Part shown: piece by piece, positions 4,026-52,763 of the stretch
Position numbering within the stretch: position 1 is the first letter of the stretch
Layout of the letters: the number at the start of each line of letters is the position of its first letter
DNA from: Orenia marismortui DSM 5156
GTDB taxonomy: Bacteria > Bacillota > Halanaerobiia > Halobacteroidales > Halobacteroidaceae
Direction: 5' to 3'
Assembly: GCF_000379025.1 (NCBI RefSeq)
Contig: NZ_KB900617.1
Span: 586,316 to 650,315, forward strand
DNA: 64,000 nucleotides
Position numbers and translations under genes: made by a program
The notes under the pieces: model-generated
The model's database searches: none
What the model was told of the DNA's origin: nothing
The model's input: only the letters and a program-made list of their open reading frames with translations

Positions 4026-4149
4026 TTGAATTAATAAAAAATATAAGAAGATATCTTGTATTCAACCTTATCTATAATTATTTGTATTCCCTACTAAAAT
4101 TATGTGTTTTGTAGGATTGATTTTTAACACTAGCACTTATAAATACTAA

Positions 4150-4247
4150 AATCTAAAATAAAACTTAATGGGTGTATTGCAATATTTTTTTGGTGTTAGA
4201 CTCTAAGGATTTTGGATTAACTATCTCCTAATCCCGAAACTGTTGTT
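4150..4247. repeat. Decayed copy of the dispersed intergenic repeat
   Basis: Read on the minus strand this stretch keeps ACAGTTTCGG at one end and CCATTAAG at the other. These are the same landmarks that bound the full copies near 29.1 and 52.6 kb, but the middle has diverged and lost most of the 7-bp periodicity. It fills much of the iscR-yczE gap (4026-4290), in which I see no gene. Confidence 0.45.
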
Positions 4248-4290
4248 TAATGTACCATAAAAATATATTGACGTTTATTTTTAGAGTCAT

Positions 4291-4917
4291 TTATCTATAT
4301 ATATTCTTACTAATAGTTGATTTAAAGTTTTTATCAGATAATCTATTAATCAACTTGAAAAAATTACTTACCACAGGTCCAACACCAAGGGCAATAACAA
4401 TGGTACCAATACCAACTGGACCCCCTAATAAATAACCAATACTCAATGCAATTAGTTCCATAGAAATTTTTATCCAACTAATATCGCAACTTAGTTTATT
4501 CTTTAGCGTCATCATCAAACTATCTCTAGGTCCAGTACCACACTGAGCAGAAATATAAATCCCCATCCCTATTCCCCAGATGACAACTCCTATCCCTAAA
4601 CATGATAGCTGTATAAATAAAGTATTTGGATCAGGTATAACCGCTTTCATAATATCAATCATAAATCCAACTAATATTATATTTATTATTGTACCCACAG
4701 TAGGTTTTACTTTGGCAAGCATAAAACTAAGTAATACAACAAATATTCCTGTTATTTGTCCAGCTTGACCTATACTTATATTAAAATATCTAGTTAAACC
4801 AATATGAAAAACATCCCATGGTGCTACTCCTAAATCAGCCTTAATAGTTAATACTATGCCAATGCTCACAATTGCTAAACCTAATGAAAATCTAAGCCAT
4901 CCCTTTATAAACTTCAT
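4291..4917 (-). CDS. YczE/YitT-like integral membrane protein
   Basis: A 208-residue polytopic membrane protein with about five hydrophobic segments. The N-terminal block has LGIAIVSIG-type glycine-rich helices followed by KADLGVAPWDVFHIGL, a conserved signature of the YczE/YyaS group. A second block, GTGPRDSLMMTL, is also typical. The function of the family is not established; a transport role is a guess. The ATG overlaps the stop of the upstream yigZ gene by one base (TAATG), so translational coupling is likely. Confidence 0.8.
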   Translation of the reverse strand: MKFIKGWLRFSLGLAIVSIGIVLTIKADLGVAPWDVFHIGLTRYFNISIGQAGQITGIFVVLLSFMLAKVKPTVGTIINIILVGFMIDIMKAVIPDPNTLFIQLSCLGIGVVIWGIGMGIYISAQCGTGPRDSLMMTLKNKLSCDISWIKISMELIALSIGYLLGGPVGIGTIVIALGVGPVVSNFFKLINRLSDKNFKSTISKNIYR

Positions 4918-25755: not shown

Positions 25756-25835
25756 ATAATCCAAAATTGATACTACTATACTGTTATCTATTTTATTTAT
25801 AATAAATATATACTAAAAATATTAACAACTTAAAT

Positions 25836-25873
25836 AAAAAACCTCTTGGCTTTTAAAAGCCAAGAGGTTTTTT
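25836..25873 (-). terminator. Terminator of secDF
   Basis: A perfect 38-bp palindrome whose arms run A6-CCTCTTGGCTTTT and its complement, ending in T6 on the minus strand, just after the secF stop codon. It is symmetric and so potentially bidirectional. Confidence 0.9.
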
Positions 25874-25883
25874 AGGTAAGTTA

Positions 25884-26741
25884 TTATCTTTTGATATTCT
25901 TTCTTTGATCCCACTCTACTAAAATAGGACTAGCTACAAAGATAGAAGAATAGGTTCCTGATAACATACCAATTAATAGAGCTATCATAAAGTTTTGAAT
26001 AGTTGTACCACCCAAGAATATAATAGCTAAAATAGGCAATAAAGTAGTTAAAGAAGTATTAATTGAACGTGGCAAAGTATCTAAAATAGCTTCATTAGTT
26101 AACTCACCAAAAGTTTCTTTTTTAGATAACTTCATCTTCTCTCTAATTCTATCGAAAATAACTATCGTATCATTAATAGAATAACCAACAATAGTTAATA
26201 ATGCTGCCACAAAAGGACTATTAATCTCTATTCTTAATAATGAGAAAATCCCTAAAACAATTAACACATCATGTAATAACGCTAAAATAGCAGCAAAAGC
26301 AAATCTAAACTCAAATCTCATACTAATATAAGCTACAATAGCTAGGGCAGCCAATAATAAAGCCAATAAAGCCTTTGTTCTTAATTCTTTACCAATTGTA
26401 GCTCCTACTGCTTCAGTTCTTAACATCTTTGCAGAAGAAAATTTGCTGGTTATATTATTCTCTAACTCAGCAGTCTTTGAAGAATCTAGTTTTTCTGTTC
26501 TAATTAAAACACTATTGTTTTCAGTCTGTTGAACTACACTCTTCTTATCTAAATTCATTTCCTTTAATATATCTCTAATCTGAGTATTAGAAATATTTTT
26601 ATCAAAAGTAAATTCCATAATTGTTCCACCTGAAAAATCAATACCTGGATTCATACCCTGGAATAAAATTGATACAAGTCCAACTAAGATTATTATTCCT
26701 GAAATTGACATCCAAAGTCTTCTTTTACCGATAATATCCAC
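25884..26741 (-). CDS. secF: Protein translocase subunit SecF
   Basis: A 285-residue RND-type membrane protein that works with SecD to drive late steps of Sec export using ion flow. The membrane segment at the N-terminus is followed by PGIDFSGGTIMEF, then five C-terminal segments with GYSINDTIVIFDRIRE. The start is GTG with AAGGAGG eight bases upstream; an in-frame ATG seven codons earlier overlaps secD and has no ribosome-binding site of its own. Confidence 0.95.
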   Translation of the reverse strand: MDIIGKRRLWMSISGIIILVGLVSILFQGMNPGIDFSGGTIMEFTFDKNISNTQIRDILKEMNLDKKSVVQQTENNSVLIRTEKLDSSKTAELENNITSKFSSAKMLRTEAVGATIGKELRTKALLALLLAALAIVAYISMRFEFRFAFAAILALLHDVLIVLGIFSLLRIEINSPFVAALLTIVGYSINDTIVIFDRIREKMKLSKKETFGELTNEAILDTLPRSINTSLTTLLPILAIIFLGGTTIQNFMIALLIGMLSGTYSSIFVASPILVEWDQRKNIKR

Positions 26742-28916: not shown

Positions 28917-29019
28917 CTGACTTTCCCCCTTAGTACTTATTAACATAATTTTATATAATAATAAAAAGTTAGATATAATCTATTTTTAATATAAACAACC
29001 TTAGAATGAAATTTTAATA

Positions 29020-29170
29020 TGTCTTATAGAAAAAAATTGCGACAGTTTCGGAGTTAGGCGTTAGGAAGTGGTAGGTAGGAAGACCTTACTAACTCCTATA
29101 ACCTATGACCTATCACCTAAAAGTGTCACACTATATCCATTAAATTTCACTTTAGACTTGGATATCTATA
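29020..29170. repeat. Dispersed inverted-repeat element with 7-bp periodic arms (copy 1)
   Basis: This intergenic element begins GCGACAGTTTCGG and ends GTGTCAC...CCATTAA. Its left arm is a run of degenerate heptads (GGAGTTA, GGCGTTA, GGAAGTG) and its right arm the complementary run (AACTCCT, ATAACCT, ATGACCT, ATCACCT). A second copy in opposite orientation lies near 52.6 kb and matches it over more than 100 bp, including the flanks. It encodes nothing. Confidence 0.85.
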
Positions 29171-34663: not shown

Positions 34664-34707
34664 ATATTACTATGTTTAAAAAGCTCTAACTAGATATATT
34701 TATGAGT

Positions 34708-34799
34708 ATAAAGCGACAGTAACGAGTGACGAGTAACAGGTGACAAATTAAGATATTTACTGCTTACTGCTCACTTGTCACTAGTTACTGAAGTGTTAG
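34708..34799. repeat. Dispersed inverted-repeat element with 7-bp periodic arms (copy 3, variant)
   Basis: It starts TAAAGCGACAG and ends AAGTGTTAG, the same ends as the 52.6-kb copy, but the arms use different heptads: AGTAACG, AGTGACG, AGTAACA, GGTGACA on one side and CTTACTG, CTCACTT, GTCACTA, GTTACTG on the other. It lies between the divergent ferredoxin and DUF1576 genes. Confidence 0.75.
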
Positions 34800-52547: not shown

Positions 52548-52706
52548 CCTAATATGGTTATCCAAGTTTAAGGTAAAGCTTAATGGATATAAAGTGACAC
52601 TTTTAGGTGCTAGGTGATAGGTCATAGGAGTTAGTAAGATCTTTCTATGTCCTAACTCCTAACGCCTAACTCCGAAACTGTCGCTTTATTTATCTATAAC
52701 CTCACA
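52548..52706. repeat. Dispersed inverted-repeat element with 7-bp periodic arms (copy 2)
   Basis: This is the reverse complement of the element near 29.1 kb. It runs from CCATTA/GTGTCAC at its start to CCGAAACTGTCGC at its end. Arm heptads are TAGGTGC, TAGGTGA, TAGGTCA, TAGGAGT and TAACTCC, TAACGCC, TAACTCC. Both flanks (ACTTGGATA and TTATAGA) also match the other copy. Confidence 0.85.
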
Positions 52707-52763
52707 TTTATATTTTATTCTACATTCACAAACCTATATCAAAGTTAAAATATACATAGAAAA

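Follow-up and report, generated by a model that had tools for sequence, protein, structure and literature searches.

The window analysed here, a 64-kb stretch of the 3.46-Mb genome of Orenia marismortui (G000; C1:586316-650315), carries an inverted pair of repeats (29024-29170 and 52553-52699, 147 nt, 84% complementary), and at that threshold no second comparable repeat is found within the 64 kb. A preliminary description of this DNA had seen in the pair a dispersed element with arms made of strings of heptads, and so it is: the arms of the window copies read GGAGTTA GGCGTTA ... facing ...ACCTATGACCTATCACCTA. The sequences that were taken to be its fixed ends, however (GCGACAG... and GTGTCAC...CCATTAA), are internal and belong to the core arms. 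The full unit is an imperfect palindrome of 182-186 bp that ends in TATAG...CTATA (28986-29170 and 52553-52738), and since full copies are conserved out to these ends, the element must be taken as 28986-29170, not 29020-29170.

The element is layered (Table 1). Outermost is what will be called frame 1, a pair of inverted 26-bp terminal repeats (TATAGATATCCAACTYTAAARTGAAA) with TATA at the extreme ends. Next inward are the core arms, in which ATAGATAGATAAAGCGACAGTTT pairs with AAAAGTGTCNCTTTATACCCATTAA; a modest degree of covariation is seen where AAA meets TTT (z 3.0 and 2.4). Innermost is the insert, which in the window copies is a 70-nt run of heptads in which TAGGNNN units are opposed by NNNCCTA units. 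More generally, the core stem (GATAAAGCGACA...TGTCGCTTTATACCC) holds exchangeable hairpin inserts, most often a degenerate-heptad fold-back. Elsewhere in the window, an abutting 32-bp inverted repeat (25823-25886, 91%) lies next to a SecF-like ORF and is probably an ordinary terminator hairpin.

Table 1. Copies of the element and their parts within the window (positions counted from its first nucleotide)
Feature	Position	Strand	Basis or genome location
Copy 1, whole element (frame-1 MITE, 185 bp)	28986..29170	+	Terminal-repeat PWM pair C1:615301-615485; full-copy consensus
Copy 1, left terminal inverted repeat, decayed, TTAATATAAACAACCTTAGAATGAAA	28986..29011	+	PWM score 14.9
Copy 1, core left arm ATAGAAAAAAATTGCGACAGTTT	29026..29048	+	PWM
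Copy 1, 70-nt heptad fold-back (GG)AGTTAGGCGTTAGG... / ...CCTATAACCTATGACCTATCACCT	29049..29118	+	
Copy 1, core right arm AAAAGTGTCACACTATATCCATTAA	29119..29143	+	PWM
Copy 1, right terminal inverted repeat TATAGATATCCAAGTCTAAAGTGAAA (on - strand)	29145..29170	-	PWM score 34.6; genome pattern match, 1 mismatch
Copy 2, whole element (186 bp)	52553..52738	-	
Copy 2, heptad fold-back	52605..52674	-	
Third copy, decayed (162 bp), frame-1 ends, shortened TAGG-type interior	4138..4299	-	C1:590453-590614
Fragment of a core arm whose heptad fold-back is of another kind (AGTAACG AGTGACG ... CACTAGTTACTG)	34699..34797	-	C1:621014

The preliminary description had staked its case on the existence of further copies, and there are many. 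A search of the organism's own genome with the element yields at least 40 matches, each with E <= 3e-28 (121 first-look candidates). Counting fragments, 41 places were located in 850 kb of C1, and 1.65 Mb, about half of the genome, contains 55 short core elements, which extrapolates to approximately 115 per genome. Scans with the PWMs of the core arms (threshold 11) give 51 and 47 matches in 850 kb of real sequence, against 2 and 4 once that sequence is Markov-shuffled. All 55 core elements are intergenic, none lying mostly inside an ORF of at least 80 amino acids, and 79-84% of the sequence is coding. The elements range in size from 51 to 370 bp and have no coding capacity. Eighteen are on the same strand as their genes and 27 on the opposite strand; neither strand nor the context of gene orientation is clearly biased.

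Across three species of the genus, the 26-bp terminal repeats enclose many different interiors, none of them coding. Their pattern, with up to 3 mismatches allowed, is matched 34, 24, and 23 times in the three genomes, and the reversed pattern is matched in none of them. In the sister species G001, frame 1 occurs with no insert at all, as a 51-bp element, and other copies of the frame contain TAGCTNN heptads, AGTAACG heptads, ATTCGTG decads, or hairpins of the CCCTCACCC type. The core, for its part, also turns up inside a second frame, inside frame 1 in inverted form, and frameless: a recognised frame is absent from 12 of 54 core elements, so the IS630 frame (see below) cannot account for all copies. 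Frame-1 MITEs of the sister species (loci L157, L163, and L170 of G001/G002, among others) bear 'CACGAAGAGTCTATAAGACTCGTAGGAAG' and AGTAACAAGTGATG modules, and chimeric modules like these appear also in inserts of O. marismortui (C1:79713 and C1:225501), which makes the inserts mosaics of recurring modules. Three near-identical inserts of 472 nt, also non-coding, lie between the same core arms (C1:801523-802042, C1:803112-803631, and C1:942805-943324) and terminate in a GTTACTTTTTT...AAAAGTA stretch, with related ends in G001 (L075 and L077). The two of them near C1:801500-803700 had been considered as an autonomous transposon, a candidacy dropped because they do not code.

Polymorphism in presence, which the preliminary description had called for between strains, is found between species, whose proteins are about 75% identical. 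Of the 13 syntenic gaps in which G000 or G001 has an element, 12 are occupied in only one of the two species. The lengths of the gaps differ in step with the presence of the element, and for element-free gaps the median difference is 0. The gap containing window copy 2 is 281 bp long in O. marismortui versus 52 bp, element-free, in G001, with a recognisable terminator common to both. Also in G001, the 51-bp insert-free element lies inside a hairpin resembling a terminator (GCCACAAGT...ACCTGTGGC), whose arms it separates.

These gaps bear on the idea that the element is not mobile but rather an old structure in RNA or DNA (a terminator, processing site, or sRNA) maintained by selection at many gene borders. 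One might point to the intergenic position of every copy and to the modest covariation at two or three pairs of the stem (z about 3). Presence in one species and absence from the other in nearly every gap compared is, however, not what such a structure would lead one to expect, nor are exact terminal inverted repeats common to unrelated interiors, nor the lack of a clear strand bias with respect to genes. The RNA fold, whose prediction had been proposed at the outset, proved hardly better than those of shuffled sequences (z -1.4 and -1.8), and an Rfam search of window positions 28000-54000 returned RNase P only, with no match to the element. The reading as a structured RNA was rejected on the fold scores and Rfam, and an immobile structure of any kind seems very improbable.

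A probable source of mobility is found in G001, where an intact transposon of the IS630 family (L532:1383-2608) is present twice in identical form, 1226 bp long, and again in partial copies. It matches DDE_3 (E 2.6e-28) and the NCBIfam IS630 equivalog (106.6 bits, cut-off 100), with the matches lying in two frames, an arrangement common for IS630. Its left end (TATAGATTTGTGAATCTAAAATGAAATTTA) is identical at 24 of 30 positions to the MITE repeat consensus and scores 19.4 on the MITE PWM, a value attained by only 51 of the 7328 26-mers starting with TATAG in the G000 sample; its right end is weak on the same PWM (6.1). Over its terminal 31 nt the transposon is 87% identical to MITE ends of G000 and 94% to those of G002. 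Copies of the transposon, internal-deletion derivatives, and MITEs are found end to end with one TA in common (L532, L534, L537, and L170). Nearly all ends read TATA, and the set includes no clean empty site. A target duplication beyond the TA inside TATA was sought and not detected, so the case for a target-site duplication comes from the abutting pairs only. At three of the G001 loci (L532, L534, and L537), an IS630 copy has gone in precisely at the terminal TA of a frame-1 MITE, which suggests that MITE ends are preferred targets of IS630.

The 24 identities in the left end, the single TA shared by abutting pairs, and the polymorphism of the syntenic gaps together argue that the element is probably a non-autonomous MITE of the IS630 type, with the heptad hairpin in its middle as a second layer. 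Of the earlier alternatives, "MITE or REP-like", the first is thereby retained and the second set aside. Insertion would have been at TA, judging from the TATA ends and the shared TA, and the elements would have been moved in trans by an IS630 transposase now absent from the genome. No DDE_3 match, IS630 gene, or full-length copy of the IS was found in G000 or G002, so the MITE family looks orphaned in the species of the window; for a MITE of this type, an autonomous partner in its own genome is usual but not indispensable. Similarly, no autonomous element with frame-1 ends was found in the sampled 1.65 Mb; pairs of terminal inverted repeats more than 900 bp apart were considered and rejected, as all looked like chance pairings.

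The interior behaves differently from its frame. In one subfamily, the length of the insert is 56, 63, 70, 77, or 98 nt, i.e., it changes in steps of 7 nt, and a few other lengths are found as well. Unit similarity is 0.67 within an arm, 0.55 across arms, and 0.29 across genomes (cross-phylum set), and the excess within arms fits expansion inside each arm, in keeping with the earlier proposal that the arms are maintained by heptad expansion. Each arm gains and loses 7-nt units of its own, presumably through polymerase slippage, which PMC4679880 gives as a proposed cause of heptad repeats. Outside any frame there are also direct heptad arrays (C1:270929-271033, C1:451908-452006, C1:238511-238559, and C1:530087-530134), with the units TAGGATA, ACTTGTC, ATTCTCA (seven times), and TCAATTA (seven times).

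Conservation declines from the inside out. Among copies with 70-nt inserts, mean pairwise identity is 0.88 in the heptads, 0.82-0.84 in the core arms, and 0.42-0.47 in the outer flanks (0.67 and 0.60 if the comparison is limited to frame-1 copies), and exactly identical 70-mers are located in differing frames. Since the interior is much the better conserved of the two and recurs unchanged in different frames, its spread, its conversion, or a constraint on it must be separate from what happens to the frame. Copying or homogenisation has probably carried it from frame to frame since those frames last moved, for example by break-induced gene conversion at extruded hairpins, or selection on the insert may have produced the same gradient.

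Perhaps, then, the real mobile unit is the core with its heptad hairpin, inserting into the middle of palindromic frames already in place, with the IS630 frame no more than a favoured landing place. That would accord with the gradient, with the occurrence of identical 70-nt interiors in frame 1, in inverted frame 1, and at unframed sites, and with the existence of frame 1 without the heptad insert (51 bp) or with other interiors. We nonetheless think it rather unlikely. Unframed copies have ragged boundaries; even where the heptads are identical, the core arms vary from copy to copy, a result more in line with conversion than with insertion; and a search for an autonomous partner bearing core ends found none. 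A Y1/REP transposase was rejected as the driver, the Y1 transposase loci having no core arms, and an inverted pair of core arms 7.6 kb in extent in G001 was rejected as a single element, since it consists of two independent short elements around housekeeping genes.

As a MITE of the IS630 type the element has familiar relatives, and its interior recalls several other kinds of repeat. The BOX elements of pneumococcus are modular, with a constant outer stem and a variable middle in which a longer unit is directly repeated; the likeness drawn here is to that layout. The STRR heptads of cyanobacteria are direct repeats with neither fold-back nor a frame of terminal inverted repeats, so that they share with Orenia the 7-nt intergenic units, but only in Orenia do arms face each other. 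REP and REPIN sequences (palindromes of 20-40 bp tagged with GTAG or CGTC and partnered by TnpA-REP) are unlike the 185-bp element, whose ends are different. RUP, again of pneumococcus, is an example of an IS630/Tc1-type MITE. With MITEs of that type (PMC10969869) the element has in common its short length, lack of coding capacity, inverted terminal repeats shared with IS630, TA-type ends, and dispersed intergenic location; it differs in that its interiors are interchangeable hairpins of heptad, decad, or triplex type and in that no partner IS was found in its host genome.

Closer to the interior is the BrickBuilt MITE of Porphyromonas gingivalis (PMC4596501), likewise a MITE with a tandem-repeat minisatellite inside and always intergenic, but its 23-nt units (19 copies) run in one direction, while the 7-nt units of Orenia fold back and several unrelated interiors occupy one frame. 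The interior of sister copies such as L182 and L575 (CCCTCACCC...GGGTGAGGG) resembles the TMECO/PIT triplex motifs of E. coli, as do CCCTCTCCC hairpins; the E. coli motifs are not tied to mobile elements, whereas in Orenia this type is one of several MITE interiors (PMC4666352). The folded arrangement of heptads, unrecognised in the preliminary description, has a published precedent in Xanthomonas: the excerpted text of PMC4692102, which also mentions heptanucleotides of Calothrix, describes about 70 convergent inverted pairs of heptads, (GGGAATC)n, close to genes. Like those of Orenia, these are degenerate convergent pairs in one gap near gene ends, variable among relatives; the Orenia unit is TAGGNNN rather than GGGAATC, and a transposon frame in Xanthomonas is not reported in that excerpt. 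Within our partial coverage of the literature, no report was found of a MITE frame of the IS630 type combined with a heptad fold-back interior. The MITE itself is of a known kind, of which the exchangeable heptad fold-back interior makes it a variant.

Such fold-backs are not confined to the genus. The pattern TAGG(N3)TAGG(N3)TAGG-N4..34-CCTA(N3)CCTA(N3)CCTA is matched by at least 118 stretches (211 distinct sequences) from named genomes spread over many phyla, where composition-naive chance expectation is far below one, and the matches checked are genuine heptad fold-backs. Of the stretches that could be placed, 86 of 101 lie outside ORFs (by simple ORF calling), and the first TAG is often the stop codon of the preceding gene. 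The period is strict. In a 2.05-Mb sample of the genus, fold-backs of any 4-mer repeated three times number 38 at period 7 and none at periods 5, 6, 8, or 9, and in viral contigs of IMG/VR, TAGG fold-backs number 36 stretches at period 7, none at 6, and 3 at 8. So is the polarity: in IMG/VR, TAGG comes first in 36 cases and CCTA in 1, and GTGA comes first in 78 and TCAC in 5 (ATGG fold-backs number 6, and direct TAGG arrays 113). With this polarity, translation coming from either side runs into TAG or TGA every 7 nt and so meets a stop whatever its frame; the same counts would be expected if purines were simply preferred first. At what appear to be orthologous gene borders in different Mesorhizobium genomes (L199, L244, and L267; L202 and L240), the fold-backs differ in number of units and offer a natural series for how the arms evolve.

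The fold-back might accordingly be slippage-prone junk that grows at the gene ends of any bacterium and resides in a MITE only incidentally. Its occurrence across phyla, often beginning at a stop codon, the greater likeness of units within arms than across them, and the rank of heptads as the commonest class of 5-11 nt repeats in repeat-rich bacteria (Mrazek et al. 2007, as cited in PMC4679880) all lean that way, and the notion is a possible one, if somewhat on the doubtful side. Slippage alone, however, leaves unexplained both the inverted layout and the polarity just described. Tentatively, and with more doubt than belief, one might go further and regard heptad fold-backs as a general class of intergenic sequence across phyla, distinguished by the exact period of 7, the fixed polarity, and all-frame stops from either side, which in Orenia has become exchangeable cargo of IS630-type MITE frames and passes between them by a means of copying that is its own.

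The more surprising part of these findings is the polar, period-7 fold-back that crosses phyla, its strict period and single orientation holding in unrelated bacteria. One modular element ties together heptad repeats, intergenic triplex/PIT hairpins, and MITEs, and it makes testable now why repeats of seven bases dominate in bacteria and why they pair head to head. A repeat of ordinary appearance thus opens a view on an unexplained and widespread process.
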